From Streptomyces wedmorensis (GTDB lineage Bacteria; Actinomycetota; Actinomycetes; Streptomycetales; Streptomycetaceae): DNA of 64,000 nucleotides. Position 1 is the first letter of the stretch. The number at the start of each line of letters is the position of its first letter. The notes beneath the pieces were generated by a model. It saw only the letters and a list, made by a program, of their open reading frames with translations. It was not told the origin of the DNA and did no database searches. This document shows, piece by piece, positions 1,241-61,347 of this stretch. Made by a program: the position numbers and the translations under genes. Where the stretch lies: NCBI RefSeq assembly GCF_000716445.1, contig NZ_JNWK01000036.1, forward strand, positions 1-64,000. Reading direction: 5' to 3'.

Positions 1241-1293
1241 GTCACGCGGTCCCGGGCCCGTCACGCGGCCCCGGACCCGGGGCCGTCACGCGG
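1241..1293. repeat. Stop-codon-carrying repeat at the 3' end of the TetR gene
   Basis: GTCACGCGG occurs at 1241, 1260 and 1285. The copy at 1285 contains the stop codon of the TetR gene (TCA at 1286-1288 on the plus strand). The other two copies lie immediately downstream on the coding strand, each keeping the TGA and a G/C-rich flank of the GGCCCCGG type. Spacing is 19 and 25 bp. Confidence 0.7.
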
Positions 1294-1915
1294 TCCGGAC
1301 CCCGACCATCCGGAGGACGAGGTCGGCGTAGAGGGCGCCGACCTCGTCGGCCGTCCGGCGGCCCTGGGCGTTGAACCAGCGCGAGACGTCGATGCAGAGG
1401 GAGAGCACGGCGACGGTGGTGCCCGGCACGTCCGGCACGTCGAACTCGCCGGCCGCCACGCCCTCGTCGATGATCGCGCGCACCGCCGCGTCGGACTGGC
1501 GGCGCAGTTCCACGATCTCGGCGCGGTGGTCGGGACCGAGGGCGTCGAGCTCGTACTGGACGACCCGCGCGGTGGTGTGGCGCTCGGCGTGCCAGCGGAC
1601 GAAGGAGCGGACGGCGTCGGCGAGGCGCTCGGCGGCCGTGCCGTCGCCGGCGGCCGCGGCCCGGAGGATCTCCAGGGCCTTGTCGTGACCGATGCGGCTG
1701 ATCCGGTGGAGCAGCTCTTCCTTGGTCTTGTAGTGGATGTAGAGCGCGGCCGGGCTCATCCCGGCGCGGCCGGCGATGTCCCGGGTGGTGGTGGCGTGAT
1801 AGCCGCGTTCGGCGAACGCCTCGACGGCGGCCACCAGCAGCCGCCGGGCCGCCTCGGGCGTGACCTCGCCCCAGGGCATGTCCTCGCCCCCGGGCGTCTC
1901 CTCCGCCACGCTCAT
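1286..1915 (-). CDS. TetR-family repressor linked to acyl-CoA metabolism
   Basis: 209 residues from the ATG at 1915, which has a GAAGGAG ribosome site. An in-frame start at 1954 would add 13 residues but lacks a clear site. The N-terminal helix-turn-helix spans roughly residues 20-65 (TTTRDIAGRAGMSPAALYIHYKTKEELL), and the rest is the usual helical ligand pocket. An operator identical to the one in front of the MaoC hydratase lies 50 bp upstream, so the protein probably represses itself and that gene. A fatty or aromatic acyl-CoA is a plausible ligand by context only. The last bases of the gene are reiterated downstream. Confidence 0.85.
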   Translation of the reverse strand: MSVAEETPGGEDMPWGEVTPEAARRLLVAAVEAFAERGYHATTTRDIAGRAGMSPAALYIHYKTKEELLHRISRIGHDKALEILRAAAAGDGTAAERLADAVRSFVRWHAERHTTARVVQYELDALGPDHRAEIVELRRQSDAAVRAIIDEGVAAGEFDVPDVPGTTVAVLSLCIDVSRWFNAQGRRTADEVGALYADLVLRMVGVRTA

Positions 1916-1964
1916 CCCACACTCCTTCTCGGACCCCGTCAGGACGAACACCATACAACGAGGG

Positions 1965-1980
1965 TGAGCAAGCGCTTAGA
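1965..1980. promoter_or_regulatory. TetR-type operator, copy 2 (autoregulatory)
   Basis: The 16 bases TGAGCAAGCGCTTAGA are identical to 637-652, here upstream of the TetR start. Two identical 16-mers, each in a promoter of one local gene pair, are very unlikely by chance. Confidence 0.7.
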
Positions 1981-2057
1981 GCGTCTCGGCATGAGAGCCC
2001 CGCCCCGGCGGCCCCGGCGGCTTCCCGCGCCGGGCCCGGGCGTCCGGGCCCGCGGCA

Positions 2058-2345
2058 TCAGAGCTTCTGGAACGGGTCGTGCTCGGCGAGGAGCTTCTCC
2101 AGGCGGGCCTGGTCGACCCGGCTGACGATCTGGCCCGCCTCCTGGCGGTCGCGGACCACCTTGGCCAGCGTGAAGGCCGAGGTCGTGAGGTAGAGGACCG
2201 AGACGGCGAGGAAGGCCCGCACCCAGGCGCTGGCTTCGAGCCGGTAGACCCCGATGCCCACGGCCAGGGCGGCGATCGCGAAGGAGATGACGGCCTGCAT
2301 GTAGTAGGCGGCGGTGTTCTGCTGCTTGACCGGTGTGTCGCTCAT
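2058..2345 (-). CDS. YiaA/YiaB-family inner-membrane protein
   Basis: 95 residues from the ATG giving MSDTPVKQ. Two transmembrane helices follow closely (about residues 15-37 and 42-62), then a charged cytoplasmic tail ending VRDRQEAGQIVSRVDQARLEKLL. This is the compact layout of the YiaA/B domain, whose function is unknown. No strong ribosome site is visible. It lies between a TetR gene and an acyl-CoA dehydrogenase on the same strand, but the 142-bp and 60-bp gaps argue against tight coupling. Confidence 0.75.
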   Translation of the reverse strand: MSDTPVKQQNTAAYYMQAVISFAIAALAVGIGVYRLEASAWVRAFLAVSVLYLTTSAFTLAKVVRDRQEAGQIVSRVDQARLEKLLAEHDPFQKL

Positions 2346-2405
2346 GGGAAGAGCATCGGGCGGATGTGCTCCGCGCCACATCCGCCCGCGTACTCACTCG
2401 GATAC

Positions 2406-3563
2406 TCAGAAGGCCGAGACCCCCGTCAGCGCCCGGCCGATGATGAGCTTCTGGATCTGACTGGTGCCCTCGTACAGGGTCATGACGCGGGCGTCGCGCA
2501 GCAGCTTGCCGACCGGGTACTCGTCGATGTAGCCGTAGCCGCCGAAGACCTGGAGGGCGTTGTTGGCGGCGCGGACGGCGGCCTCGGAGGCGTACAGCTT
2601 GGCCTTGGAGGCGGCGGTGGCGAAGTCCTGGCCCCGGTCGACGAGGTCGGCGACGCGCCAGGTCAGCAGCCGGGCGGCGTCCACGTCGACGGCGATGTCG
2701 CTGATCAGTTCCTGCACGAGCTGGTACGAGGCGATGGGCTTGCCGAACTGCTCGCGCTCCCCCGCGTACCGCACAGCGGCGTCCAGCGCGGCCTGCGCGA
2801 TGCCGACGCAGCCGGCGGCGACCGACATGCGGCCCTTGGCCAGGGCCGACATGGCGACGGTGAAGCCCTTGCCCTCGGGGCCGAGCATCGCGGCGGCGGG
2901 CACGCGGACGTCCTCCAGGACCAGTTCGGCGGTGGCCTGGCCGCGCAGGCCGAGCTTGCCGTGGATGGCGCGGCGGGTGAGGCCGGGGGTGTCGGTGGGG
3001 ACGAGGAAGGCGGAGACGCCCTTGTGTCCCGGCGCGTCGCCGGTCCGCGCGAAGAGCAGGACGACGTCGGCCCAGGTGCCGTTGGTGATGAACATCTTGC
3101 TGCCGTTGACCACGTAGTCACCGGTGGCGGCGTCACGGACGGCCCGGGTGGCCAGGTTCCCGGCGTCGGAGCCGGTGCCCGGCTCGGTGAGCCCGAAGCA
3201 GCCGAGCGCCTCGCCGGCGGCGAGCCGGGGCAGCCAGGCGCGCTTCTGCTCCTCGCTGCCCCAGGAGGCGATGGTCTTGGCGACCAGGCCGAGGGAGACG
3301 GAGACGATGCCGCGCACGGAGGAGTCGCCGCGGCCGAGTTCCTCGGTGACGAGGCAGTACGCGAGGTGGTCGCCGCCGGAGCCCCCGTACTCCTCCGGGA
3401 TCGTGAGCCCCAGGAAGCCGACGGCGCCGAGTTTCTTCACGATCGTCCGGTCGACCTCCTCGGCGCGGTCCCAGGCGACGACGTGCGGAGTGACCTCGCG
3501 TGCGACGAAGTCCTCGGCGAGCCGCCGTACGGCTTCCTGCTCCTCGCTCAGCGCCAGATCCAC
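2406..3563 (-). CDS. Acyl-CoA dehydrogenase
   Basis: 385 residues, the standard length. N-terminal helical, middle beta and C-terminal helical domains are all present. FGLTEPGTGSDAG marks the FAD and substrate region, REQFGKPIASYQLVQ is the family signature, and LYEGTSQIQ supplies the catalytic Glu365. The enzyme makes a 2-enoyl-CoA and passes electrons to ETF. GTG start at 3563 with GAGGTGG just upstream. It is divergent from a TetR gene with 69 bp between starts, and a 21-bp operator-like dyad in that gap recurs in front of the aldehyde dehydrogenase at 14365. Confidence 0.92.
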   Translation of the reverse strand: MDLALSEEQEAVRRLAEDFVAREVTPHVVAWDRAEEVDRTIVKKLGAVGFLGLTIPEEYGGSGGDHLAYCLVTEELGRGDSSVRGIVSVSLGLVAKTIASWGSEEQKRAWLPRLAAGEALGCFGLTEPGTGSDAGNLATRAVRDAATGDYVVNGSKMFITNGTWADVVLLFARTGDAPGHKGVSAFLVPTDTPGLTRRAIHGKLGLRGQATAELVLEDVRVPAAAMLGPEGKGFTVAMSALAKGRMSVAAGCVGIAQAALDAAVRYAGEREQFGKPIASYQLVQELISDIAVDVDAARLLTWRVADLVDRGQDFATAASKAKLYASEAAVRAANNALQVFGGYGYIDEYPVGKLLRDARVMTLYEGTSQIQKLIIGRALTGVSAF

Positions 3564-3592
3564 CGTGCACCACCTCGACCGTCCATTTAATT

Positions 3593-3614
3593 ACCACTGC
3601 TAGTTTTTTAGTGC
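3593..3614. promoter_or_regulatory. Operator-like dyad, copy A (acyl-CoA dehydrogenase / TetR)
   Basis: The core CTGCTAGTTTTTTAGTGC (3597-3614) matches 15 of 18 bases of 14413-14430. Arms CACT and AGTG flank an AT-rich spacer, which stands out in this GC-rich genome. Differences from the second copy are partly compensatory: the G-C pair of copy B is an A-T pair here. The site overlaps the likely promoter of the TetR gene. Confidence 0.65.
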
Positions 3615-3632
3615 AGGCCTACTATGTGCGCC

Positions 3633-4295
3633 ATGGCCCGACCGCGCAAGCCCCTGCTCAGCCGAGACCTGATCGTCGAGACGGCGGGAGCGCTGGTCGA
3701 CGCGGAGGGCCTCGCCGGGCTCTCCACCCGCCGGCTCGCCGCCGTACTCGGGGTGAGCGGCCCCTCGCTCTACAACCACTTCCGCACGAAGGACGAGATC
3801 CTCGACGCCGTCGCCGACTCGGTGAGCGCGAAGATCGACCTGTCGATGTTCGCGGAGGACGACGTCCGGGACTGGTGGACCGCCCTGCACGACTGGGCGG
3901 TCTCCTACCGCGCCGCCCTCGCCGACCATCCGCACATCGTCCCGGTCCTCGCCCAGGGCCCCGGCCGCCGCCCGGCGGGCCTCCGCGTCGCCGACGCCGT
4001 CTTCGGCGCCATGGTCCGTGCCGGCTGGCCCCCCGCCCAGGCGACCTCGATCGGCGCCCTGATGCGGTACTTCGTCACCGGCTCCGCCCTGGGCTCCTTC
4101 GCCCGCGGCTTCGTCGACGACGAGACCGCCTACGACCCCGCCGACTACCCCCACCTCGGCCAGGCGCACCTCCTCGCGGAACACCGCCAGAAAGTCGACG
4201 AGCGAGCCTTCGACACCGGCCTGCGCGCCCTCCTCGACGGTCTGCGGCTCCAGTACGAGGCGCTCCCGGCCCGGCCCGACCGGCAGGACGCCTAG
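3633..4295 (+). CDS. TetR-family regulator
   Basis: 220 residues from the ATG at 3633. A TACTAT -10-like box ends 7 bases before that codon, so the mRNA may be leaderless; an ATG at 3624 is the alternative. The DNA-binding domain covers about residues 10-55 (LSTRRLAAVLGVSGPSLYNHFRTKDEIL), followed by a TetR_C-type ligand domain. It probably controls the divergent acyl-CoA dehydrogenase and, through the matching dyad at 14410, the aldehyde/alcohol dehydrogenase operon. An IS5-type remnant begins within 20 bp of the stop. Confidence 0.85.
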   Translation: MARPRKPLLSRDLIVETAGALVDAEGLAGLSTRRLAAVLGVSGPSLYNHFRTKDEILDAVADSVSAKIDLSMFAEDDVRDWWTALHDWAVSYRAALADHPHIVPVLAQGPGRRPAGLRVADAVFGAMVRAGWPPAQATSIGALMRYFVTGSALGSFARGFVDDETAYDPADYPHLGQAHLLAEHRQKVDERAFDTGLRALLDGLRLQYEALPARPDRQDA

Positions 4296-4311
4296 GGCCT
4301 GTCGTCAAATG

Positions 4312-4679: not shown

Positions 4680-4735
4680 CACCCAAGATCAAATGAAGAA
4701 ACCGCATGAGCACCTGCTGCGACCGTGCCGGTCAC

Positions 4736-6079: not shown

Positions 6080-6373
6080 GTCTCGCTCCCCCAAGTACGT
6101 CCGCGCCGCCAATGGTCCGCAGGACTTCCCACGTTCCTTGGCGGCGATCATCATAGGAAGTTCACCGGGACGGAAGGCCACCCCCCACCGGCCGACGACG
6201 GGTACGGCCCGGGTCCGCACCACGTGAGCAGGGACGACTCCGCCGGAAGCAACGGGGGAGGGGCGGAGGTCGCCACCCTCGCAGCACTTGGGCGTGACCT
6301 GTGACGACAGAGCCCAGGGAGCACCCTGGACGGTTCGGCCGCCGCCGAAGGGTGTGTGCGGCACAGTGGGGGG

Positions 6374-7069
6374 ATGGCAGCCAGTGACCTCGCCGCGCTC
6401 GCGGCGCTCTTCGCGGACGAGAGCCGCGCCGCGTTCCTGCTCGCCCTGCTGGACGGCCGGGCCTGGACGGCGGGGGAGCTCGCCCGGCAGGCGGGAGTGG
6501 CGCCGTCCACCGCCAGCGAGCACCTCGGAAAGCTGGTCGCGGGAGGGGTGCTCGCCGAGGAACGGCAGGGCAGACACCGGTACGTGCGGCTGGCCGACCC
6601 CGGGATCGCGCACCTCGTCGAGGATCTGGCCGCCCGGTCCCAGCCCGAGGTGCCCGCGGCGCCGCGTTCTCTGCGCGAGGCGAGCGCCGGTGAGGCGATG
6701 GCCCGCGGCCGTACGTGCTACGACCATCTCGCCGGACGGCTCGGCATCGCGATCACGGAGGCCATGACCGTACGCGGGCTGCTCCGTCAGGACACCGGCT
6801 TCGCGCTCACGGACCGGGGTCTGACCTGGTTCGACGACCGGGGCATCACCCTCGTGCGCAAGGGGCGGCGGCCGGTGGCCCGCGGCTGCCTCGACTGGAC
6901 CGAGCGACGGCCGCACCTCGCGGGCATCGCGGGCGCCGCCCTGTGCCGGCACGCGCTGGACGCCGGATGGTGCGTACGGATCGGGTCCGAGCGCGCCGTG
7001 AAGGTGACCGCCGAGGGCGAGTCCGCCCTGTACGCGTCCCTGGGCATCGCCCCGGCCGCCCTGCGGTGA
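6374..7069 (+). CDS. ArsR-family winged-helix regulator with long C-terminal domain
   Basis: 231 residues from the ATG at 6374, preceded by GGGGGG. The winged helix occupies about residues 10-75 (WTAGELARQAGVAPSTASEHLGKLVAGGVLAEERQGRHRYVRL). The remaining 150 residues are conserved in streptomycete ArsR-like proteins but are not a metal-binding domain, although several Cys and His are present (GRTCYDH, GCLDW, ALCRHALDAGWCVR). It is divergent from the propeller lipoprotein across 294 bp in which no further gene is visible. The gene end is duplicated 100 bp downstream. Confidence 0.85.
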   Translation: MAASDLAALAALFADESRAAFLLALLDGRAWTAGELARQAGVAPSTASEHLGKLVAGGVLAEERQGRHRYVRLADPGIAHLVEDLAARSQPEVPAAPRSLREASAGEAMARGRTCYDHLAGRLGIAITEAMTVRGLLRQDTGFALTDRGLTWFDDRGITLVRKGRRPVARGCLDWTERRPHLAGIAGAALCRHALDAGWCVRIGSERAVKVTAEGESALYASLGIAPAALR

Positions 7070-7183
7070 CCCGGGCACGGGCGACGCAGCGGCGACCCGG
7101 GCGGCAGGAGCGCGGCGACCCGGTCACGGGCGGCCCGGCGGTGCCCTGGGCGCGGGGGCCCTGCGGTGACCCGGGCACGGGCG
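7058..7183. repeat. 100-bp-offset duplication of the ArsR gene end
   Basis: The 26 bases at 7058-7083, which include the TGA stop at 7067-7069, recur exactly at 7158-7183. The intervening bases are degenerate copies of the same theme (GCGGCGACCCGG and CACGGGCGGCCCGGCG). The repeat therefore starts inside the coding sequence and carries a stop codon in each exact copy. Confidence 0.8.
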
Positions 7184-7235
7184 GCCCGGCGATATTGCGG
7201 TGAGCGCCGAAGGGTTCACGTCCTACGGTCGAGCC

Positions 7236-8192: not shown

Positions 8193-8233
8193 CCCTGCCG
8201 GCCACGGCCTCCCGCCGTCCGGCGGCCGGACCG

Positions 8234-10838: not shown

Positions 10839-11585
10839 ATGTCCGACCCGACCACCACCGACCTGACCACCACCGACCCGACCACCACCGACCCGACCAC
10901 CACCGACCTGACCCCGCCGCGCGGCGTCATCACCGTCTTCTCCGACATCTGGTGTTCCTTCGCGCACATCGCCGTCCACCGGCTGCACGCCACCCGGGCC
11001 CGGCTCGGCCTGGAGGAGCGGGTCTCCTTCGACCTGCACGCCTTCCCGCTCGAGCTGCTGAACGACGCCCCGAGCCCGCGGCCCGGCACGGACAGCGAGG
11101 TCGCCCGGATGGCGAGCCTCGAGCCGGCCGCCGGGTGGCAGCTGTGGCAGGCCAAGGACTGGCTCTACCCCACGACGACGCTGCCCGCCCTGGAGGCGGT
11201 CCTCGCGGCGAAGGAGCAGAGCCTGAGCGCCTCCGAGCAGCTCGACCTCGGACTCCGCCGGGCCTTCTGGGCCGAGTCGCGCTGCGTCAGCCACCGCAAG
11301 GTGATCCTGGACGTGGCCGCGGACACCGGCGTGGTCGACGTCGACGCGCTGGCCGAGGCGCTCGACGACGGCCGCGCACGCCGGACGCTCGCCGACCAGG
11401 CCGCGGTGTCCAGGACCGACCGGGTGAACTGCAGCCCGCACCTCTTCCTGCCCGACGGCTCCGACCACGCCAACCCGGGCATCGACGTGGGCTGGGAGGG
11501 TGCGTACGGCGTCGGCTGGCCGGTGATCGCCTCGGACGACCCGAAGGTGTTCGAGGGCCTTCTGCTGCGGGCCGCCACCGAATAG
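10839..11585 (+). CDS. DsbA-family oxidoreductase-like protein with a TTTDP-repeat leader
   Basis: 248 residues. The first 25 are a low-complexity leader made of four 5-residue units (DPTTT/DLTTT) from a 15-bp DNA repeat. A DSBA-like thioredoxin domain follows (ITVFSDIWCSFAHIAVHRL to about residue 235). The usual CxxC is reduced to one Cys (WCSFAH), so it is not a conventional dithiol oxidase; it may act like a glutathione-S-transferase-kappa or FrnE relative. Ribosome site GGAGAA. It lies 52 bp after the MBL-fold gene. A strong hairpin ends the transcript at 11622-11662. Confidence 0.75.
   Translation: MSDPTTTDLTTTDPTTTDPTTTDLTPPRGVITVFSDIWCSFAHIAVHRLHATRARLGLEERVSFDLHAFPLELLNDAPSPRPGTDSEVARMASLEPAAGWQLWQAKDWLYPTTTLPALEAVLAAKEQSLSASEQLDLGLRRAFWAESRCVSHRKVILDVAADTGVVDVDALAEALDDGRARRTLADQAAVSRTDRVNCSPHLFLPDGSDHANPGIDVGWEGAYGVGWPVIASDDPKVFEGLLLRAATE
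10845..10904 (+). repeat. 15-bp in-frame tandem repeat
   Basis: Four units of GACCYGACCACCACC encode Asp-Pro/Leu-Thr-Thr-Thr. A partial fifth unit follows. The period is a multiple of three, so copy changes would keep the frame and only lengthen the leader. Confidence 0.85.
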
Positions 11586-11662: not shown

Positions 11663-12001
<339 letters not shown>

Positions 12002-14430: not shown

Positions 14431-14560
14431 CAGGGTCGACCGACGTGCCCCCCGTCTCACCCGCCCCCGCACCCCGGCCCACTCGATCGTGCCGCCCCAC
14501 CGGCCGCCTGTCCACGTGCGCCTCGCACCGTCACGGGCTTCCCGGCACGGGGGATCCCGC

Positions 14561-14628
14561 GTGCCCTGCATGCCCCGCGTGCCCTGCATGCCCCGCGTGC
14601 CCTGCGTGCCCCGCGTGCCCTGCGTGCC
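14561..14628. repeat. 18-bp tandem repeat (GTGCCCTGCRTGCCCCGC)
   Basis: Units begin at 14561, 14579, 14597 and 14615, the last incomplete. Each can be split into two 9-bp halves of GTGCCCYGC. It fills part of the 403-bp gene-free stretch between the aldehyde dehydrogenase start and the sortase stop; no coding frame there is convincing. Confidence 0.85.
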
Positions 14629-16331: not shown

Positions 16332-17762
16332 TCAGATGATTCCGAAGAGGATCCCCGCAGCCAGCACCACCAGCGAGGTCAGCGCGGCCCACTTCACCGT
16401 GAACCTGGTGTGGTCGCCGAACTCCACCTTCGCCATGCCGACCAGCACGTACACCGCGGGCACCAGCGGGCTCGACATGTGCAGCGCCTGGCCGACCAGC
16501 GACGCGCGGGCGATCTCCAGGGGCGAGACGCCGTGGGCCGCGCCCGCCTCGGCGAGGACCGGCACCACGCCGAAGTAGAAGCCGTCGTTCGACATGAAGT
16601 ACGTCAGCGGGATGCTCAGCACGCCGGTCACCAGCCCCATGTGCGGGCCCATGCCCTCGGGGATGGCGCCGACGAGCCAGTCGGCCATGTGCTTGACCAT
16701 GCCCGTGCCGGTGAGGACGCCGGTGAAGACGGCGGCGGCGAAGACCATGCCGGCGACGTTGAGGACGTTGTCGGCGTGCGCGGCGATACGGGCCTTCTGC
16801 TCGGCCATGTTCGGGTAGTTCACGGTGAGCGCGAGGGCCGCACCGAGGAGGAACAGGACCGGGATCGGCAGCAGTTCGAGGATCATCGCCGTCAGCAGTG
16901 CCACGGTCAGCCCGGCGTTGAACCAGTACAGCTTGGGGCGGAGCGTCGCACGGTGGGGGTCGAGCCCCTGGAATCCGTCGGCCGGCGCGGTTCCGGTGCC
17001 GCCGCCGGTGCCGGGACCCGTCGTCTCGCCCTGCCCGCCCGAACCGGTGCCGGTGGCGCCGGTGCCCGTGGAGCCCGTGCCGCCCGTCGCGACCAGTACG
17101 GTCTCGGTCTCCGGCACCAGGGCCTCGTCGAGGGTGAGGTAGCCGATCCGCTTGCGCTCACGGCGGCCGAGGACGTACGCGAGGACGAACACGAAGAGCA
17201 GGCCCATGCCGAGCGCGGGGATCATCGGCACGAAGACGTCGGCGGCGTCGAGCTTCAGCGCGGTGGCGGCGCGGGCCGTCGGGCCGCCCCAGGGCAGGGT
17301 GTTCATGACGCCGTTGGCGGTGGCGGCGACACCGGTCATGACCACCAGGCTCATGCCGAGCCGCTTGTACAGCGGATACATCGCCGAGACGGTGATCATG
17401 AACGTGGTGGAGCCGTCGCCGTCCAGCGAGACGATCGCGGCGAGCACCGCGGTGCCCACGACGATACGGACGGGGTCGGCCTTGCAGAAGCGCAGGATGC
17501 CCCGGACGATCGGGTCGAAGAGGCCGACGTCGATCATGACTCCGAAATAGACGATCGCGAACATCAGCATCGCGGCGGTCGGCGCCAGCTTGCCGACGCC
17601 TTCGATGACGTAGTCGCCGAGCTGGGCCCCCTGCCCGACCGCGACGCAGAAGAGCGCGGGGATCAGCACGAGCGCCGCGATCGGCGACATCTTCTTCATC
17701 ATGATCAGGACCAGGAAGGTCGCGATCATGGCGAAACCGAGGACGGTCAGCATGGAGGACAC
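16332..17762 (-). CDS. CitMHS-family citrate-metal:proton symporter
   Basis: 476 residues with about 12 hydrophobic helices. Family features include SLDGDGSTTFMITVSAMYPLYKRLG, LPWGGPTARAATAL and SNDGFYFGVVPVLAEAG. CitMHS proteins import citrate complexed with a divalent metal; SNDGFYFG is close to the region linked to substrate binding. A central cytoplasmic loop carries a long Gly/Thr/Ser-rich insert (about residues 228-262). GTG start at 17762; an ATG three codons later is the alternative. It stands alone, without the two-component genes often found beside it. Confidence 0.9.
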   Translation of the reverse strand: MSSMLTVLGFAMIATFLVLIMMKKMSPIAALVLIPALFCVAVGQGAQLGDYVIEGVGKLAPTAAMLMFAIVYFGVMIDVGLFDPIVRGILRFCKADPVRIVVGTAVLAAIVSLDGDGSTTFMITVSAMYPLYKRLGMSLVVMTGVAATANGVMNTLPWGGPTARAATALKLDAADVFVPMIPALGMGLLFVFVLAYVLGRRERKRIGYLTLDEALVPETETVLVATGGTGSTGTGATGTGSGGQGETTGPGTGGGTGTAPADGFQGLDPHRATLRPKLYWFNAGLTVALLTAMILELLPIPVLFLLGAALALTVNYPNMAEQKARIAAHADNVLNVAGMVFAAAVFTGVLTGTGMVKHMADWLVGAIPEGMGPHMGLVTGVLSIPLTYFMSNDGFYFGVVPVLAEAGAAHGVSPLEIARASLVGQALHMSSPLVPAVYVLVGMAKVEFGDHTRFTVKWAALTSLVVLAAGILFGII

Positions 17763-17904
17763 CTCACGTTCACCCTTGAACTCCCGCCGAGCGGCGGCGG
17801 TCCGGATGACGGTAGGTGTCCTCTTCAGCCGTTAACAAGACGTTGACGCGTGAGCAATACGAGCAAAACCCCAGGTCACGGCAGGGGTCACGGCCGGGGT
17901 ACCG

Positions 17905-18100
17905 ACGGGGCGCCCGGTCGGGGTCACGGCAGGGCGCTCGGTCGGGGTCACGGCAGGGCGCCCGGTCGGGGTCACGGCAGGGCGCCCGGTCGGGGTCACG
18001 GCAGGGCGCCCGGTCGGGGTCACGGCAGGGCGCTCGGTCGGGGTCACGGCAGGGCGCTCGGTCGGGGTCACAGCGGGGCGCCCGGTCGGGGTCACAGCAG
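17905..18100. repeat. 24-bp tandem array at the 3' end of the molybdopterin oxidoreductase gene
   Basis: GGGTCAC recurs at exactly 24-bp spacing at 17921, 17945, 17969, 17993, 18017, 18041, 18065 and 18089. The unit on the coding strand is CCCCGACCGGGCGCCCTGCC plus GTGA, with mostly one-base variants. The array begins inside the gene: its last codons and TGA form the first, degenerate unit, and every later unit keeps the TGA. Two weaker copies precede it at 17885 and 17897. The gap from the citrate transporter start to this array holds no gene. Confidence 0.92.
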
Positions 18101-20293
18101 GGGTGTCACCTCGACGGGGAATCCGTTCAGGACGGCGGTGCCGGAGAGGGGGTCGATCCGGGAGCCGTCGAGCAGCTGGTTGACGTTGACGCCGGGGCGG
18201 GCGGACGCCACGGAGAGCCGGGTGCCGGGCCGGTCGTGGCCCCAGCCGTGCGGAAGGCTCACCGCCCCGGGCCGCACCCCGTCGGTGACTTCCACCGGCA
18301 CCTCGAGCTCTCCGCCCTCTCCCTTGACCCGGGCGAGCCCGCCGTCGGTGAGCCGCAGCCGCTCCGCGTCCGACGGATGCACCTGGAGGGTGCAGCGGTT
18401 CGATCCCCCGCCGAGCGCGGGGGTGTTGTGCAGCCAGCTGTTGTTCGAGCGCAGGTGCCGCCGTCCGACGAGGTGGAGCGTGCCCGGCTCCGGTACGGCG
18501 TGGAGCGCGGCCCGCAGCCGGGGCAGGTCGGCGGCGAGGGGCGCGGGGAGGAGCTCGATCCGTCCGCTGCGGGTCTTGAGGAGCTGCGGGATCCGGGGCT
18601 TCAGCGGTCCGAGGTCGATGCCGTGCGGGTGGGCCTTCAGTTCGTCGAGGGTGAGCCCGTACGGGCCGAGGCGCAGCATCAGGTCGAGCCGCCGTTCGGG
18701 CCCGGTGTCGCCGGAGAGCCCGGCCGCGAACTCCTTCGGGTCGGCGCCGTAGGCGGGCGAGTGCTCCTGGGTGACGGCCTTGGCGAGCGTCATGTCGATC
18801 GCCAGCTCGTCGACGGCGGACGGCGGGGCCCCGTCCGGCCCGGACACGGCGAGGATCAGCCGGGCGTGGATCTCGCATTCGTCCATGCGGTCCGCTTCGA
18901 GGGGGACGGCGGCCGGGGTGTAGCGGGCCTGGTCGCGGACGGCGAAGCCGTTGAAGGCGAAGTCGAAGTGGGCGCTCCGCGAGGGCGGCGGCGGGGGCAG
19001 CAGGACGTCGGCGTGGCGGGTGGTCTCGTTGAGGTAGGGGTCGACGGCGATCATGAGGTCGAGGGAGCCGAGGGCCGCGTCGAGGCGGTCCCCGTCGGGC
19101 GCGGAGAGGACGGGGTTGGCTGCGACGGTGATCACCGCCCTGATCCGGCCCTCCCCCGGCGTCTCGATCTCCTCGGCGAGCGCGACCAGCGGCAGTTCGC
19201 CCTTGACCTCGGGGTGGTGCGAGACCCTGCTGTGCCGGCGGCCGAGGGCGAACCCCTTCCCCGGTCCTGCGGGGCGCGGGGCGGGCGCGGTGGCGGAGAG
19301 CGGGAAGAGGGCGCCGCCGGGCCGGTCGAGGTTGCCGGTGAGGATGTTGAGGACGTCGACGAGCCAGTTGCCGAGGGTGCCGTACGCCACGGTGGAGCTG
19401 CCCATCCGCCCGTACACGGCTGCCGTGGGGGCGGCGGCGAGTTCGCGGGCGAGCGTACGGATCGTGGCGGCGTCCACGTCGCAGGCGGCGGCGACCGCCT
19501 CGGGGCTGAACTCCCCCACCGCGGACCGCACCTCCTCCACCCCCTCGACGTGGGCGGCGAGCGGGCCGAGGTCGGTGAGGCCCTCCTCGAAGAGGGTGTG
19601 GACGAGGGCGGCGAGGAGGAGTGCGTCGGCGCCCGGGCGGATCGAGACGTGTCGGTCGGCGAGGCGGGCGGTCCGGGTGCGCCGGGGGTCGACGACGGTG
19701 AGGGTGCCGCCGCGCCGGCGCAGTGCCTTGAGCCTGCCGGGGAAGTCGGGGGCGGTGCACAGACTTCCGTTGGAGTCCAGCGGGTTGGCCCCGAGGATCA
19801 GCAGGTGGTCGGTGCGGTCCAGGTCCGGCACGGGTACGGCGAAGGGGTCCCCGAAGAGCAGGCCGCTGGAGACGTGCTTGGGCATCTGGTCGAGCGTCGA
19901 CGCGGTGAAGAGGTTCCGCGTCCGCACCGCGCCGATCAGCAGGGGCGGGTAGAGGGCGCCGGCCATCGTGTGCACGTTGGGGTTGCCCAGGACGATACCC
20001 ACCGCGTCCGGCCCGTACTCCTCGATCAGCGGCCGGATTCGGGAGGCGATCACGTCGAACGCCTCTTCCCAGGTGGCCTCCTGGAGCCTCCCGTCCTTCC
20101 TGACCAGCGGTCCGCGCAACCGGTCCGGGTCCGCGTCGACCTCGGGGAACGCGGCGCCCTTCGGGCAGATGAACCCCTCGCTGAGGACGTCGTCGCGGTC
20201 ACCCCGCGCCCCCGTCACCCGGGTCCCGTCGATCGTGAGGGTCAGTCCGCAGGTCGCTTCGCAGAGGGGACAGATGCGCAGGGCGGTGGACAT
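18092..20293 (-). CDS. Molybdopterin-dependent oxidoreductase (FdhF/BisC-like)
   Basis: 733 residues from ATG 20293 (GGGAGAAG ribosome site). The N-terminal [4Fe-4S] motif is CPLCEATC then FICPKG, as in assimilatory nitrate reductases and formate dehydrogenases. Bis-MGD binding features follow (GIVLGNPNVHT, ILGANPLDSNGS, VVDPRRTRTA), and the C-terminal molydopterin-binding beta-barrel includes LVGRRHLRSNNSWLHN. No signal peptide, so it is cytoplasmic. No partner subunit or cofactor gene adjoins it. Substrate unknown. A palindrome at 20333 lies just upstream. Confidence 0.88.
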   Translation of the reverse strand: MSTALRICPLCEATCGLTLTIDGTRVTGARGDRDDVLSEGFICPKGAAFPEVDADPDRLRGPLVRKDGRLQEATWEEAFDVIASRIRPLIEEYGPDAVGIVLGNPNVHTMAGALYPPLLIGAVRTRNLFTASTLDQMPKHVSSGLLFGDPFAVPVPDLDRTDHLLILGANPLDSNGSLCTAPDFPGRLKALRRRGGTLTVVDPRRTRTARLADRHVSIRPGADALLLAALVHTLFEEGLTDLGPLAAHVEGVEEVRSAVGEFSPEAVAAACDVDAATIRTLARELAAAPTAAVYGRMGSSTVAYGTLGNWLVDVLNILTGNLDRPGGALFPLSATAPAPRPAGPGKGFALGRRHSRVSHHPEVKGELPLVALAEEIETPGEGRIRAVITVAANPVLSAPDGDRLDAALGSLDLMIAVDPYLNETTRHADVLLPPPPPSRSAHFDFAFNGFAVRDQARYTPAAVPLEADRMDECEIHARLILAVSGPDGAPPSAVDELAIDMTLAKAVTQEHSPAYGADPKEFAAGLSGDTGPERRLDLMLRLGPYGLTLDELKAHPHGIDLGPLKPRIPQLLKTRSGRIELLPAPLAADLPRLRAALHAVPEPGTLHLVGRRHLRSNNSWLHNTPALGGGSNRCTLQVHPSDAERLRLTDGGLARVKGEGGELEVPVEVTDGVRPGAVSLPHGWGHDRPGTRLSVASARPGVNVNQLLDGSRIDPLSGTAVLNGFPVEVTPLL

Positions 20294-20344: not shown

Positions 20345-20376
20345 GACGCACGGGAGGGGGTGCGGGGCCCTTCGCA

Positions 20377-20572
20377 CGGGACGGCTCGGCGAGGGTGTGC
20401 CGGACCGCTCGCGCGGAACGGCTTGGCGAGGGCTGGTCCTCTTGCGCGGGACCGCTCGGTGAGGTGTGCCGGACCTCTCGCGCGGAACGGCTTGGCGAGG
20501 GGTACGGACGCCTCGCCAAGCCGCGTCGGCGAGGGTTACGGGGGCCGCTCGCACGGGACGGCTTCGCGAGGA
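20377..20572. repeat. Degenerate repeat cluster (GCGCGGAACGGCTTGGCGAGG type)
   Basis: Two 38-bp near-identical copies start at 20395 and 20464. Shorter copies of CGCACGGGACGGCTCGGCGAGG type lie at about 20375, 20445 and 20550, and one copy is inverted at 20509-20525. No gene is supported in this 290-bp stretch between the TetR stop and the oxidoreductase start. Confidence 0.75.
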
Positions 20573-20583
20573 TCCCCGTACCC

Positions 20584-21327
20584 CTATGACGACAGCGAGG
20601 GCGCCAGATACGCGTGGAGGAGGTGGCGAGTCTCGTCGACGAGCGCCGGGTCGCCCGCGGGATCGGCGCGGAAGGCGAGGCGGACGAGGGCGTCGGCGGT
20701 CTCGACGCCGACGAGCACCTTCCGTCGCAGGTCGTCGTCGACGGTGCGGCCGAGATGGGTGGCGAGGAGCGCGCAGATCCGGTCGACGACGAGGCGGTTG
20801 GGATCCTCGGCGAGCCCCTCGATCCCGTCCTCGCCGGATCCTCCGGCGCCGGCCTCTTCAGCGCCTCCGGCCGCTTCGCCGGCAGACTCCCCGGAGCCGA
20901 CCGGACCCTCGGCGGAGGTCTCGCCGGGCGCGGCGGCGGGCACGCCGAAGTCGACGAGTGCGAAACCGGGGACGGTCCGCTTCATCGCGATGAACTCGTC
21001 GAGGACGCCGTCGATCGCACCGTGGGCGTCGAGCAGGGACGTCGCCGCGAAGCGGGTGGAGATCCGCTCGGCGTACTCGTCGAGGTTGCGGTGGGCCAGG
21101 GCGGCGACCATCGCCCGCTTGTTGCCGAAGAAGCGGTAGACGGAGCCGATGGGGACCCCGGCGCGGGCGGCGACGGCGCGGGTGCTCAGCTGCTCGTACC
21201 CGGTCTCGTCGAGGAGTGCGGCGCAGGCGTCGAGGATCCGGGCGAGCCGCTCGGCGCTGCGCTGCTGCACCGGGGTGCGACGGAGCACCGGGGGTGTCTG
21301 GGGGCTGGTCTGGGGCACGGGGACCAT
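20584..21327 (-). CDS. TetR-family regulator with an acidic Gly/Ala insert
   Basis: 247 residues, ATG 21327 with GGAG upstream. The helix-turn-helix is STRAVAARAGVPIGSVYRFFGNKRAMV. About residues 130-170 form a low-complexity Gly/Glu/Ala insert (SAEGPVGSGESAGEAAGGAEE) within the ligand domain, which is otherwise typical. It starts 37 bp after the stop of the membrane-protein gene on the same strand, so it is probably the last cistron of the beta-helix operon. Confidence 0.83.
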   Translation of the reverse strand: MVPVPQTSPQTPPVLRRTPVQQRSAERLARILDACAALLDETGYEQLSTRAVAARAGVPIGSVYRFFGNKRAMVAALAHRNLDEYAERISTRFAATSLLDAHGAIDGVLDEFIAMKRTVPGFALVDFGVPAAAPGETSAEGPVGSGESAGEAAGGAEEAGAGGSGEDGIEGLAEDPNRLVVDRICALLATHLGRTVDDDLRRKVLVGVETADALVRLAFRADPAGDPALVDETRHLLHAYLAPSLSS

Positions 21328-27177: not shown

Positions 27178-27927
27178 GTGACCGCCTTCGCACCCGACTC
27201 GCTGGTCCTGAACCGCAAGCTGCCGCTCTGGTATCAGGTCTCGCAGTCGCTGCGCGCCTCGATACTGGGCCGCACGCCCGACGCCTCGCTGCGGCTGCCC
27301 ACCGAGGAGCAGCTCGCCGCCCACTACGGCGTGAGCGTGCTCACCATGCGCCAGGCCCTCAAGGAGCTGGAGGAGGAGGGTCTGATCAGCCGGCACCGGC
27401 GGCGCGGCACGTTCATCGAGCCGGGTGCCCGGCGGTCCACCCCGCGCCGGCTGCTGGGCTCGATCGACACGATCGTGGCCCAGCAGTCGGGCGAGCGGAC
27501 GACGGTCCTCGGGCACGGCCCCGAACCGGTGCCGGGCGAGCTCGCCGAGTACTTCCCGGACGTGCCGGAGGTCGTGGCGTACCGGCGGCTGCGCCGCGAC
27601 GGGGAGAGCGACGAGCCCACCAACTGGGCGGAGAACGCGGTGCTCCCGGAGCTCGCCGCCGCGATCGACCCGGCCGATCTGGTCCGCTGGCCGATGACGA
27701 AGGTGCTGCGCGACGTCGTCGGGGTGCGGATCAGCCGCATCACGGACACGGTCGAGGCGCGCCTCGCCGACCCGGAGACGGCGGGCCTCCTCCAGGTCCC
27801 GCTGCTCTCCCCGATCCTCCACTACACCGGCGTGACCTACGACGAGGACGGCAGGGTCGTCGACGTGGCCCGCATCCGCTACCGCGGCGACCGCTTCTCC
27901 TTCACGGTCACCGTGGGGGCACAGTGA
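27178..27927 (+). CDS. GntR-family regulator, HutC/UTRA type
   Basis: 249 residues from GTG 27178. Winged helix at about residues 12-80 (LRLPTEEQLAAHYGVSVLTMRQALKELEEEGLISRHRRRGTF), then a UTRA ligand domain. It lies 40 bp after hmgA on the same strand and is probably co-transcribed. A role in tyrosine catabolism control is likely by position; the 9-bp dyad upstream of hmgA is a plausible target. The end of the gene is reiterated downstream. Confidence 0.85.
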   Translation: MTAFAPDSLVLNRKLPLWYQVSQSLRASILGRTPDASLRLPTEEQLAAHYGVSVLTMRQALKELEEEGLISRHRRRGTFIEPGARRSTPRRLLGSIDTIVAQQSGERTTVLGHGPEPVPGELAEYFPDVPEVVAYRRLRRDGESDEPTNWAENAVLPELAAAIDPADLVRWPMTKVLRDVVGVRISRITDTVEARLADPETAGLLQVPLLSPILHYTGVTYDEDGRVVDVARIRYRGDRFSFTVTVGAQ

Positions 27928-28105
27928 CGACGGCAGCGCCGTGACGGTGTGAGCGCATTGACGATGCGCGCGATGACGGTCGAAACGCCCTGCACGATCG
28001 AAGCGCTCTGCATGGTCGAAACGCCCTGCACGTGCGCGCGTCGTGACGGTGCGCACGTGCCCGTGACGCCGGCGGCGCGGTGACGAAGGCAGCACGCTGA
28101 CGGTG
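27924..28105. repeat. Direct repeats downstream of the GntR gene
   Basis: GTGACGACGGCAGCGCCGTG (start of a 26-bp unit at 27924-27949, containing the gene's TGA) recurs with four mismatches at 28080-28105. Between them three 18-bp units, GGTCGAAACGCCCTGCAC, GATCGAAGCGCTCTGCAT and GGTCGAAACGCCCTGCAC, are head to tail at 27978-28031. No gene is seen in the 213-bp gap. Confidence 0.85.
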
Positions 28106-28140
28106 GAAGCCCACGGACGGCCGTCGTTAGCATGCGGGGC

Positions 28141-46881: not shown

Positions 46882-47877
46882 ATGAGCTCTCGCCGTACGG
46901 CCGCGGCAGTCGCCACCTCCGCTCTGGTCCTGTCGGGTCTCGCCGTCGCGCCCGCTTTCGCGCACGGCTCGATGACGGATCCGGTGAGCCGGGTGGCGGG
47001 GTGTTACGCGGAGGGGCCGGAGGCGCCGAAGTCGGCCGCGTGCAAGGCCGCGGTGGCGGCGAGCGGGACGCAGGCGTTCTACGACTGGAACGCGGTGAAC
47101 ATCGCGAACGCGGCGGGGCAGCACCGGCGGTTGATCCCGGACGGCAAGCTGTGCAGCGCGGGCAACGACAAGTACCGGGGGCTCGACCTGGCGCGGGCCG
47201 ACTGGCCGGCGAGCCGGATGACGGCGGGAGCGCACACGTTCCGGTACAAGGGGACGGCTCCGCACAGGGGGTCGTTCGCGCTGTACGTGACGAAGGACGG
47301 GTACGACCCGACGAAGCCGCTGAAGTGGTCGGACCTGGAGGAGAAGCCGTTCGCCACGGTGACCGATCCGGGGATGGAGAACGGCGACTACGTGTTCCGG
47401 GGGACGGTGCCGAGGAAGTCCGGGCGTCATCTGATCTATTCGATCTGGCAGCGGTCGGACTCCCCGGAGGCGTTCTACACCTGCTCGGACGTGGTGTTCG
47501 GGCAGGACGGGGGCGGTACGGCTCCGGCTCCTACCGCCTCCGCGCCCACCGACGAGCAGATCGAGGCCGGCGCGGGCGAGTCCTCGGTCGAGCACGGCGG
47601 GCACGGGGACGGCGACGCGGCGACCGGCGCGGAGGAGACGGCGGCGGCCCCCGAGCCCACCCGTCCGGAGACGGCCGCCGCCGAGCCCGCTCCGTCGGAG
47701 ACGGCCGCCGCCGAACCCAACGCGCCCGCTTCGGCGGCCGGTTCGGGTTCCGGGGTGGAGCTGGCGGAGACGGGCGGCGGCGCCACCACGCCGTTCCTCG
47801 CGGCCGGTGGCGCCGCCGTGCTGCTGCTCGGTGCGGCGTTGCTGTTCGGGACGGCCCGGCGCCGGGTCCGGGGCTAG
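46882..47877 (+). CDS. Cell-wall-sorted AA10 lytic polysaccharide monooxygenase
   Basis: 331 residues. Signal peptide ends at AFA-H28, so the mature chain begins with His, the first ligand of the copper histidine brace; the second is in GAHTFRYKG. Two Cys pairs fit the AA10 fold (residues about 28-205). An Ala/Pro/Glu-rich linker follows, then the sorting tail LAETG (294-298), a hydrophobic helix and RRRVRG. LAxTG is the class E sortase motif, so the enzyme is probably attached to peptidoglycan and oxidises chitin or cellulose at the cell surface. Ribosome site GAAGGAG. Its last 19 bases are reiterated downstream. Confidence 0.92.
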   Translation: MSSRRTAAAVATSALVLSGLAVAPAFAHGSMTDPVSRVAGCYAEGPEAPKSAACKAAVAASGTQAFYDWNAVNIANAAGQHRRLIPDGKLCSAGNDKYRGLDLARADWPASRMTAGAHTFRYKGTAPHRGSFALYVTKDGYDPTKPLKWSDLEEKPFATVTDPGMENGDYVFRGTVPRKSGRHLIYSIWQRSDSPEAFYTCSDVVFGQDGGGTAPAPTASAPTDEQIEAGAGESSVEHGGHGDGDAATGAEETAAAPEPTRPETAAAEPAPSETAAAEPNAPASAAGSGSGVELAETGGGATTPFLAAGGAAVLLLGAALLFGTARRRVRG

Positions 47878-47934
47878 GTCCTGGGCCCGGGGCCAGGTCC
47901 TGGGCCCGGGGCCAGGTCCTCGGCCCGGGGCCAG
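47857..47934. repeat. 19-bp tandem repeat beginning in the LPMO stop region
   Basis: Three identical or near-identical units of GTCCTGGGCCCGGGGCCAG start at 47878, 47897 and 47916. The 19 bases before them, which end in the TAG stop (47875-47877), match the unit at 14 positions, with TAG in place of CAG. Confidence 0.85.
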
Positions 47935-47989
47935 GTCACCTGGGTCCTCTCCGGGAAGGTCCCGCCTGGTTCCGTCTTCCGGGCAGGGG

Positions 47990-55163: not shown

Positions 55164-55299
55164 TGTTCTCCTTCTGGGAAAAGCGGAGGGGCCCGTGGGT
55201 GACGGGCCCGTGAGGCGCCATCAGGTGACGTGTTCCTGACATGCACCGCCAGTGATACTGGCCCTCGTACAGCGGACGCACAAGACCGCAGTACGGACG

Positions 55300-55330
55300 G
55301 ATGCCCCCGGCCGTCCCGGCCGGGGGCATC
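55300..55330 (-). terminator. Terminator of the ABC/monooxygenase operon
   Basis: GATGCCCCCGGCCG (55300-55313) pairs perfectly with CGGCCGGGGGCATC (55317-55330) around TCC. It begins 22 bp after the DUF1684 stop. Confidence 0.9.
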
Positions 55331-55351
55331 CCTGCGCGAGGAAAGACCCGG

Positions 55352-56140: not shown

Positions 56141-56145
56141 GGTGT

Positions 56146-58475: not shown

Positions 58476-58525
58476 GCGGTCTCTCTCGGTGCGGGGCCGG
58501 TCGGGGCTGCGTCGGTCACGGCGGG

Positions 58526-59500
58526 TCAGTTCTTGGTGCGGGGCAGGCCGGGCGGGTTGATCTCGGACTTCGTGACGGCCTCGCCGCTCAGGCCCCACCG
58601 CTTGAGGACCTCGGCGTAGGTGCCGTTCGCAACGATGTGGTCGATCGCGGCCGCGTACGCGGCGACGAGGCCGCTGTCCTTCTTCGTGGTGGCCGCGATC
58701 TTGCCCTGGAGCCCGGCGCCCGCTCCGGAGAACTTGCCGACGGCCTCGGTCTGTCCGGCGGAGGCCACGTGGTAGGCGACGGTGGGGTTGGGGCCGAGGT
58801 AGCCGTCGATGCGGCCGGACTGGAGGGCGAGGTAGTAGTCGGTCGTGTTGTCGTAGTACTTGATGTCGACGCCCTTGCGGCCGGCCTTCTCGTTCTGCCG
58901 GGACCAGTCGACGAGGATCTTCTCCTGGTTGGTGCCGGAGCCGACCGCGATCCGCTTGCCCGACACGTCCTCGGGGCCCTTCACCGTCCAGCCCGACCCC
59001 TTCTTCGCCTCGAAGGCGAGGTCGTCGAGGCGGTAGGTGGCGAAGTCGTACTTGTCCTTGCGCTCCTCGGTGACGGTCACGTTGGAGAAGACGGCGTCGT
59101 ACTTGCCGCTGTCCAGGCCGACGAAGAGGTTCTCCCAGGAGACCGGGTTGAACTCGGGCTTCAGACCGAGGGTGTCGGCGACCAGGGTGGCCAGGTCCAG
59201 CTCGACGCCGATCAGCGTCTTGTCGTCGGTGGCGCGGAAGGCGAGCGGCGGGTTGCTCTTGGCGGAGACGCCGAGGATCAGCGTGCCTCTCTTGCGGACG
59301 GCCTCGGGCAGCTTGCCGGCGATGGCGTCGACCTCGGCGGTGTGGACGCGGTTCTGGTTCGGGCCGATGTTGATGCCCGTGTCCTTCCGGCCCTCCGGCT
59401 TGATCTCGTCGACGGCGGCGTCGCCCGAACCGCAGGCGGTGAGGAGCCCGAGGGCGGTGAGCGAGGCGAGGGCGGTGAGGACGGCGCGACGGGTCTTCAT
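58526..59500 (-). CDS. ABC transporter substrate-binding lipoprotein (polar amino acid type)
   Basis: 324 residues. Lipobox LTAC at about residue 23. SBP_bac_3 domain with GTLILGVSAKSNPPLAF, VGVELDLATLVADTLGLKPE (first lobe) and FDGVDSGKYDAVFSNVTVT-like LFVGLDSGKYDAVFSNVT. It feeds the two permeases and the ATPase encoded around it. An amino acid or amino-acid-like thioether is the likely ligand. Confidence 0.92.
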   Translation of the reverse strand: MKTRRAVLTALASLTALGLLTACGSGDAAVDEIKPEGRKDTGINIGPNQNRVHTAEVDAIAGKLPEAVRKRGTLILGVSAKSNPPLAFRATDDKTLIGVELDLATLVADTLGLKPEFNPVSWENLFVGLDSGKYDAVFSNVTVTEERKDKYDFATYRLDDLAFEAKKGSGWTVKGPEDVSGKRIAVGSGTNQEKILVDWSRQNEKAGRKGVDIKYYDNTTDYYLALQSGRIDGYLGPNPTVAYHVASAGQTEAVGKFSGAGAGLQGKIAATTKKDSGLVAAYAAAIDHIVANGTYAEVLKRWGLSGEAVTKSEINPPGLPRTKN

Positions 59501-59535
59501 GGCGTTGCTCCTGGGGGTGAGAGGGAGGGTGGGGA

Positions 59536-60336
59536 TCAGAGGACCTTGGAGAGGAAGGCGCGGGTGCGCTCGTGGCGCGGGCTGTCGAGGACCTCGGCGG
59601 GCGGCCCCTGCTCGACGATCCGGCCCTCGTCCATGAAGACCACGGTGTCGGCGACCTCGCGGGCGAAGCCGATCTCGTGGGTGACGACGATCATGGTCGT
59701 GCCGGACGCGGCCAGGTCCTTGATGACGTCGAGGACCTCGCCGACCAGTTCGGGGTCGAGCGCGGAGGTCGGCTCGTCGAAGAGCAGCAGGCCGGGTTCG
59801 AGGGCGAGCGCCCGGGCGATGGCCACCCGCTGCTGCTGTCCGCCGGAGAGCTGCTTGGGGTACGCCTCCGCCTTGTCGGCGAGCCCGACGCGTTCGAGCA
59901 GGCTCCGGGCCGCGGCCTCGGCCTCCTTGCGGGGGCGTTTGAGGGCCGAGACGGGGGCCTCGACGATGTTCTCCAGGACGGTGAGGTGCGGGAAGAGGTG
60001 GAAGTTCTGGAAGACGAAGCCGATCCGGGTGCGCTGCTTGAGGATCTCGCGCTCGCGGAGCTCGTACAGCTTGTTGCCGGAGCGGCGGTAGCCGACGAGG
60101 ACGCCGTCGACGCTGACCGTGCCGCCGTCGACCTTCTCCAGGTGGTTGACGGTCCGCAGCAGGGTCGACTTGCCGGAGCCGGAGGGGCCGAGGACGACGG
60201 TGACCTCGCCGGCCCGGATGTCGAGGTCGATGCCGCGCAGGACGTGGAGCGGGCCGAAGTGCTTGTGGACGGACCGGATCTCGACCTTGGCGGTGGCGGT
60301 CCCGGCCGCGGGGTCCGCGGTGGTGACGGAGCTCAT
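59536..60336 (-). CDS. ABC transporter ATPase (polar amino acid type)
   Basis: 266 residues. Walker A GPSGSGKST, Q-loop FVFQNFHLFPHLTVLENI, signature LSGGQQQRVAIARAL, Walker B LLLFDEPTSALDPELV and switch VVTHEIGFAREVAD. The HisP/GlnQ-type insert (GNKLYELREREILKQRTRIG) is present. ATG overlaps the permease stop by 4 bp. Confidence 0.95.
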   Translation of the reverse strand: MSSVTTADPAAGTATAKVEIRSVHKHFGPLHVLRGIDLDIRAGEVTVVLGPSGSGKSTLLRTVNHLEKVDGGTVSVDGVLVGYRRSGNKLYELREREILKQRTRIGFVFQNFHLFPHLTVLENIVEAPVSALKRPRKEAEAAARSLLERVGLADKAEAYPKQLSGGQQQRVAIARALALEPGLLLFDEPTSALDPELVGEVLDVIKDLAASGTTMIVVTHEIGFAREVADTVVFMDEGRIVEQGPPAEVLDSPRHERTRAFLSKVL

Positions 60337-61226
60337 CGGACGCTCCCCTTCGCGTAGTGGCGTTCGACGTAGTGCTGGACGACGGAGAGCGCGGTGGTGA
60401 GCAGGACGTACCAGGCGGTGGCGACCATCAGGAGGGGGACGACCCGGCCGTTGCGGCCGTAGACGACCTGCACCTGGTAGAAGAGTTCACCGATCGCCAT
60501 GACGGAGACGATCGAGGTGCCCTTGAAGAGCGAGATGATCTCGTTGGCGGCGTTCGGCAGGATCGAGCGCATCGCCTGCGGCAGCACGATCCGCCGGACC
60601 TGGCGGAGCCGGGGGATGCCGAGGGAGGCCGCCGCCTCCAGCTGGCCCTCGTCCACGGCGAGCACGCCGCCCCGCACGATCTCCGCCGCGTAGGCCGCCT
60701 GGTGCAGGGCGAGGCCGAGGACGGCGGCGCCCATCTCGCCGACCAGGCCCATCGTGTCGAAGGAGACGAAGCCCGGCCCGAAGGGGATGCCGATGCTCAG
60801 TTCCTCGTACAGATAGGCGAGGTTGAACCAGAAGAGCAGCTGGACGATGAGCGGGATGGAGCGGAACGCCCAGATGTAGGCGAAGGCGACCGACCGCAGG
60901 AACGGGCTGGCGGACAGGCGCATGAAGGCGAGCACGATGCCGATGGCGAAGCCGAGCGCGGTGCCGTGGAAGGTGAGCTGGAGGGTGACCCAGACGGCCT
61001 GGAGGATCGTCTCCGTGGTGAAGAAGGCGGCGAAGACGTCCCACTCCCAGCCGGGGTTGGTCACGAGACCGTGGCCGAACTGGGCGAGCAGGACGGCGGT
61101 GGCCGCGACGGCGGCCCAGCGCCAGGGGTGGCGCACCGGGACGACCACGAGTGCGGGTGCCGGAGGTGTGGGGGGCGGGTCCTTCACGACGCTTTCGGTG
61201 GCGGGCGGATCGCTGGTGAGAGACAT
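60333..61226 (-). CDS. ABC permease, His/Glu/Gln type
   Basis: 297 residues, five to six helices with an Ala/Pro-rich N-terminal extension. The EAA-like loop is AASLGIPRLRQVRRIVLPQAM. Paralogous to the permease encoded at 63132, with which it may form a heterodimer. A 103-bp gap filled with repeats separates it from the FAD-protein gene. Confidence 0.92.
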   Translation of the reverse strand: MSLTSDPPATESVVKDPPPTPPAPALVVVPVRHPWRWAAVAATAVLLAQFGHGLVTNPGWEWDVFAAFFTTETILQAVWVTLQLTFHGTALGFAIGIVLAFMRLSASPFLRSVAFAYIWAFRSIPLIVQLLFWFNLAYLYEELSIGIPFGPGFVSFDTMGLVGEMGAAVLGLALHQAAYAAEIVRGGVLAVDEGQLEAAASLGIPRLRQVRRIVLPQAMRSILPNAANEIISLFKGTSIVSVMAIGELFYQVQVVYGRNGRVVPLLMVATAWYVLLTTALSVVQHYVERHYAKGSVR

Positions 61227-61282
61227 GGCGGTTCCTCGGAGGGGGCGGGGCGGGAAGGGGCGGCCGCAGCAGCGGACGGCGT

Positions 61283-61347
61283 GGGCTCGGGCGCTCGGCG
61301 GCGCCGGTCAGGCACTCGGCGGCGCGGGCTCAGGCGCTCAGCGGCGC
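61283..61347. repeat. 21-22-bp tandem repeat at the end of the FAD-protein gene
   Basis: CTCGGCGGCGC occurs at 61294 and 61315, and CTCAGCGGCGC at 61337. The three units GGGCTCGGGCG-, CGGTCAGGCA- and GGGCTCAGGCG- are head to tail. The rightmost contains the stop (TCA at 61330-61332), and the middle one keeps a TCA at the same place. Confidence 0.75.

Follow-up and report, generated by a model that had tools for sequence, protein, structure and literature searches.

Repeats over stop codons in Streptomyces wedmorensis are probably lineage-specific insertions that persist in a short slot under weak constraint

Introduction

In the Mycobacterium tuberculosis complex, the stretch between rnc and fpg1 measures 279-358 bp and holds multiple direct repeats, whereas other mycobacteria have only a few base pairs from stop to start (PMC2734929). 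The six repeat arrays described here resemble this VNTR or minisatellite in that lineage-specific repeats lie between the stop of one gene and the next gene; they differ in that, by the account of that paper, repeat length at rnc-fpg1 is linked to expression of the downstream gene (PMC2734929), while the arrays here are presumably neutral. A wider change at gene ends has been reported in staphylococci, where mRNA conservation is lost around the stop; Enterobacteriaceae and Bacillus tend the same way (Menendez-Gil 2020, as summarised in the review PMC7821165). Our loci share with it that orthologues keep their coding sequence (CDS) and diverge from about the stop onward, but gene rearrangement, local changes and insertion sequences are the causes named in that review's summary, in contrast with the short duplications seen here (PMC7821165).

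Tandem repeats in Borgs are described as recent and independent, with periods that are always divisible by three within open reading frames (ORFs) and only in 14-38% of cases between genes (PMC9879509). Some of the Borg arrays begin within the end of an ORF, and the periods in threes have their counterpart here; however, the Borg units are A-rich and perfect and belong to archaeal extrachromosomal elements, as that paper presents them (PMC9879509). Some sets of the TAACTGA repeats of Beggiatoaceae likewise overlap the stop of the upstream gene, although these are described as a single common heptamer occurring genome-wide (PMC4679880). Finally, mycobacterial interspersed repetitive units (MIRUs) are said to insert at start codons as one family (PMC12548453). 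They too lie at the borders of genes and hardly damage them (PMC12548453), but in contrast with one family at start codons, the units here stand at different loci without evident homology. In the literature searched, we found no account of Streptomyces repeats that cover stop codons.

Materials and methods

The window is the whole 64,000-nt stretch of DNA that was analysed, positions 1-64,000 of contig NZ_JNWK01000036.1 of Streptomyces wedmorensis (GCF_000716445.1). Genome-wide statistics cover 1.664 Mb of this 9.38-Mb genome, with 1355 predicted genes. Gene ends were taken from a custom gene finder trained on the source genome rather than from the annotation; its stops are more certain than its starts. 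The strict cut for a repeat was a score of 16 at +1/-2 and a distance of 10-250. Two relatives, G004 and G015, were compared as one genome per species; their protein identity at the oxidoreductase described below is 92 and 93%, respectively. Among the three species, 407 syntenic gap pairs were counted and 326 aligned, pairs whose longer gap was >700 or <1 being left out. Clean indels were those of at least 12 nt flanked on each side by 15 columns of no less than 70% identity, which kept 196 (239 without the flank filter); indels were counted pairwise between species, so that one event may count twice.

Results

The sequence-only reading had reported six genes in the window whose stop falls within a direct repeat that recurs in the 3' flank, and all six are present in the sequence. 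Four of them passed the strict cut, while GntR and the FAD protein appeared only at a softer one. Pfam backs the gene names at the six loci with the exception of ArsR, for which the best match is HTH_20 and HTH_5 (arsR) is just at the cut-off; we therefore call this gene ArsR-like. Head-to-tail units of ~10-100 bp were found by TRF and the repeat scan in the TetR, ArsR-like, oxidoreductase, LPMO and FAD arrays, whereas GntR has two copies 156 bp apart.

The TetR-family regulator gene (1286..1915, minus strand) ends within three degenerate units (1228..1304, minus strand) spaced by 25 and 19 that lie over its stop at 1286-1288. Segments 1272-1304, 1247-1279 and 1228-1260 match at 27/33 and 28/33 positions, each with a TGA. 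This array is part of a 141-bp insertion relative to G004 and G015. In both relatives TetR overlaps the convergent MaoC gene; here the 141 bp separate the two and supply a different stop to TetR, whose last residues are unlike those of the relatives. At the ArsR-like HTH regulator gene (6356..7069, plus strand; stop 7067-7069), repeats spaced by 26, 49 and 100 bp begin in the last codons (7053..7191, plus strand), and 7058-7083 is copied at 26 of 26 positions at 7158-7183, 100 bp further on. The downstream gap is 166 bp here, 82 bp in G004, which has a different 6-bp repeat, and 11 bp in G015, relative to which 119 bp are inserted.

The molybdopterin oxidoreductase gene (18092..20293, minus strand; stop 18092-18094) carries the 24-bp array (17874..18102, minus strand) over its stop, with 9.5 copies by TRF where eight had been read before. 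There are 216 bp extra between the stop and the flank compared to both G004 and G015, and the last unit of the array restores the GTGACCTGGGG junction found in the relatives. A further TetR-type gene (20584-21327, by Pfam) does not have its stop within a repeat. The GntR-family regulator gene with a UTRA domain (27178..27927, plus strand; stop 27925-27927) is followed by a gap of 273 bp, compared to 45 bp in G004 and 47 bp in G015; its 3'-end direct repeat (27915..28119, plus strand) consists of 27915-27963 and the matching 28071-28119, at a spacing of exactly 156.

The gene for an LPMO_10 protein (46882..47877, plus strand; stop 47875-47877) has a 19-bp array (47853..47937, plus strand) over its stop, and TAG becomes CAG in the copies, as had been noted earlier. 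Its gap is 112 here, 59 in G004 and -4 in G015, where two convergent genes meet in a single CTAG; here GGGGCTAG is found at both ends of the extra DNA. Lastly, imperfect units of 21-22 bp (61277..61350, minus strand) lie over the stop (61330-61332) of the FAD-NAD(P)-binding protein gene (61330..63135, minus strand), with a gap of 103 compared to 45 in G004 and with different repeats at the same stop in G015.

The arrays of all six genes are absent from G004 and G015, and five of the six genes end at a codon homologous to that of the relatives (LPMO judged by eye against G004), TetR being the exception. Homologues of the oxidoreductase matched in 276 of 392 genomes, and we read the best 30 loci, the window's own included. 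A conserved downstream element was present at 28 of these best 30 loci and lacking at two; it lay 7 nt from the stop in 18 of the 28, 223 nt away in the window and 19-121 nt away in the nine others. Different repeat units cover the oxidoreductase stop in locus L148, whose reading frame is shifted and whose stop and repeats were identified by eye, in L164 and, weakly, in L154, so that arrays differ between species at the same stop. The relatives would represent the older state, a direction of change that we infer at most loci and that is best supported at the oxidoreductase.

Across the 1.66 Mb of the genome, local repeats contained 36 of 1355 stops compared to 3 of 1355 starts (Fisher, 3e-8); with the window's contig excluded, the counts were 31 and 3 of 1279 (6.6e-7). 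When 3' regions were dinucleotide-shuffled, 0 of 1334 stops fell in repeats in each of three rounds. G004 had 10 stops and 1 start in repeats of 357, while G015 had 7 and 5 of 356, a contrast that was not significant (p 0.77). The enrichment at stops over starts implied by the sequence-only reading thus held in its own genome, where it exceeded chance, but was not significant in G015. The 242 arrays divided into 133 within coding sequence, 34 spanning one or two stops, 4 spanning a start and 71 intergenic, and the period was divisible by three in 131 of the 133 arrays inside coding sequence.

The arrays had also been described as anchored on the stop codon. In the 629 genes with a downstream gap of at least 80 bp, repeat coverage was 0.7-1.2% at -200 to -20, 2.9% at -20 to 0, 5.5% at 0 to 20 and 7-8% at +20 to +120, falling afterwards; since the profile has no peak at the stop, we rejected the stop as an anchor in this sense. 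What survives of the claim is an excess, over uniform placement in the gap, of array edges and of indels between species close to stops. Arrays crossed 36 of 119 stop-side ends, a modest excess over the 22.7-28.9 expected from random gap placement with some overhang, and their edges cluster 10-20 nt inside the CDS end (18 compared to 4.4-13.0 expected).

Clean indels between species were concentrated immediately behind the stop, at 25.2 per kb aligned at 0-10 nt and 16.4 at 10-20 nt behind the CDS end. The rate was 2.5-4.0 further out, at 20-70 nt, and 0.9 over the 10 nt that precede starts. Where both gaps were at least 40 bp, 61 of the 123 observed stop-side edges within the tabulated range lay at 0-20 nt, while simulated uniform insertions passed through the same aligner gave 50 of 167, 35 of 131 and 55 of 166. 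In convergent gaps, 27 of 30 indels, several of which share one gap, lay at most 20 nt from a CDS end (16.4 expected; 73 of 136 in simulation); counting one indel per gap in convergent gaps of at least 100 bp left 4 of 5 near a CDS end compared to 1.2 expected. In tandem gaps of at least 100 bp, 14 of 29 indels were near the stop compared to 3.5 expected, a slightly generous figure in that indels up to 20 nt inside or outside the CDS end were counted and the expectation covers the outer side only.

Judged by substitutions, these 20 nt are under the least constraint. Identity between G004 and G015, taken over 64 gaps free of indels of at least 6 nt, was 0.85 and 0.88 within 20 nt of the stop and 0.92-0.94 at 20-60 nt. 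Hairpin excess peaked at +24 in convergent gaps; because the strongest window in tandem gaps begins at the CDS end (-1.45 at 0), a hairpin beyond these 20 nt is seen in convergent gaps only. Copies of their own flank accounted for 26 of 110 near-stop insertions (2.5 expected) and for 10 of 49 near-start insertions (0.9 expected), and the remaining 84 of 110 near-stop insertions were not recognisable as flank copies. Duplication is thus at work, but it is not specific to stops, since the flank-copy share is similar near starts.

Discussion

Two close relatives lack the arrays, the extra DNA lies at the stop, where other species carry other units, and constraint is weak over the first 20 nt. We consider it quite probable that the arrays are lineage-specific insertions, partly or largely local duplications, that are tolerated in this narrow slot. 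The mutational step, we infer, would be local duplication through slippage or unequal exchange between short repeats. The slot would extend for ~20 nt, from the stop codon to the next constrained stretch, which may be a terminator-like hairpin in convergent pairs and otherwise a regulatory element or a promoter. If a duplication begins in the coding end and runs across the stop, the gene would stay whole, since the old stop still closes the first copy, and the extra stops downstream would therefore be passengers. By comparison, a duplication inside a gene would need to preserve the frame, and a duplication over a start would disturb the 5' end. Insertions could thus collect in the slot, and repeats over stops would need no function; the arrays themselves are presumably neutral. 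Slippage or duplication at gene ends is the only one of the three explanations offered by the sequence-only reading that fits, whereas the back-up stop, the 3'-UTR element and anchoring as a coverage peak do not.

Several observations run counter to tolerance. The crossed stops and the pile-up of edges at the CDS end exceed uniform placement, as do indels near stops even in tandem gaps of at least 100 bp, most near-stop insertions are not flank copies, and stops are not above starts in G015. In addition, the increase within the slot is larger for indels than for substitutions, a difference for which weak constraint alone may not account. The uneven repeat spacing modulo 3 and the restriction of a hairpin beyond the slot to convergent gaps also speak against tolerance. 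An alternative is a stop-linked mutation hot spot, in which duplications arise more often behind the stop than elsewhere. Nascent RNA without ribosomes behind the stop would give rise to R-loops, Rho action or polymerase stalling. The excess of near-stop indels, the absence of a comparable edge attraction in the simulated insertions and the steeper rise of indels than of substitutions would all be consistent with such a hot spot. However, substitutions climb over these 20 nt as well, and both the convergent gaps and the oxidoreductase have constrained elements further on, so that tolerance alone can yield the pattern; the share of flank copies, too, is similar near starts. We think it unlikely that the first 20 nt behind stops are a duplication hot spot in Streptomyces tied to the departure of ribosomes from the transcript. 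If they were, bacterial 3' flanks would grow outwards from the stop.

That the arrays are functional 3'-UTR elements in termination or mRNA decay, as had also been suggested, appears very unlikely. They are GC-rich and positioned where 3' UTRs are, but the two close relatives lack them, other species have different units, and no family of units is evident. Array flanks were also no more structured than other 3' flanks, with a mean fold z of -1.20 (n=30) compared to -1.42 in 120 sampled repeat-free flanks, and Rfam gave 0 matches at the gathering score in the 64-kb window.

We give even less credence to the insertion of a mobile repeat at stop codons, comparable to that of MIRUs. Extra DNA at stops and the 8-bp direct repeat that brackets the extra DNA at LPMO are what such an element might leave, but no shared element was seen: 10 of the 34 stop-spanning arrays had off-locus matches at E 1e-3 (in 1.66 of 9.38 Mb), and the 15 matches listed cover 25-80 bp and reach an E of 1e-6 at best. 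The oxidoreductase array had one 38-bp match elsewhere in the whole genome. A dispersed family of homologous units was rejected on the short or weak off-locus matches in the 1.66 Mb.

Back-up stop codons against readthrough, suggested by the TGA in many copies, are the least credible reading, because only 11 of the 53 stop cases had a repeat spacing divisible by three (three genomes, arrays common to convergent stops counting twice; 11/15/27 modulo 3, uneven at p 0.02) and the stop triplet was intact in the next copy in 34 of 48 cases, no better than the 38.3 expected from other triplets of the same alignments; the stops thus look carried along rather than kept.

The six arrays are probably ordinary genome drift of a striking shape and not a new genetic element. 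The picture that was measured is one of changing gap length between genes in a GC-rich genome, with the changes concentrated within 20 nt downstream of stops. Convergent genes that overlap in one species can stand apart in another, and a gene can draw its stop from the extra DNA, as TetR does. As a caution, a repeat that covers a stop codon is not necessarily a functional element.

Across the three genomes sampled (that of the window itself and those of two close relatives, G004 and G015), the spacing of the stop-spanning repeats was uneven modulo 3, at 11/15/27 (n=53). The window also has another TetR-type gene, its second (20584-21327), and 12 nt beyond its stop lies a diverged repeat array (20364-20571) that both G004 and G015 lack. 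This array leaves the stop uncovered. It looks like a product of the same process as the stop-spanning arrays, most probably lineage-specific duplication tolerated in the weakly constrained slot behind a stop, minus the stop coverage.

Repeats were also found elsewhere in the window. An intergenic CCTCCC repeat (11902-11939) adjoins an intergenic run of 34 G (11948-11981), the two together occupying 11902-11981, and an 18-bp array of approximately four near-identical copies is likewise intergenic (14556-14628). A DsbA-like gene is predicted to start at 10839, with a 15-bp repeat of 4.7 copies (10843-10913) immediately after that point, and this start may be wrongly placed.

Between the molybdopterin oxidoreductase gene and that of a CitMHS transporter (16332-17753), downstream of the former and upstream of the latter, is a conserved element, TTTTGCTCGTATTGCTCA (17851-17868, - strand), in which TTGCTC is present twice. 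Among the 30 best loci, 28 hold the element, and in 18 of these 28 it lies 7 nt past the oxidoreductase stop. The element is possibly a regulator site.
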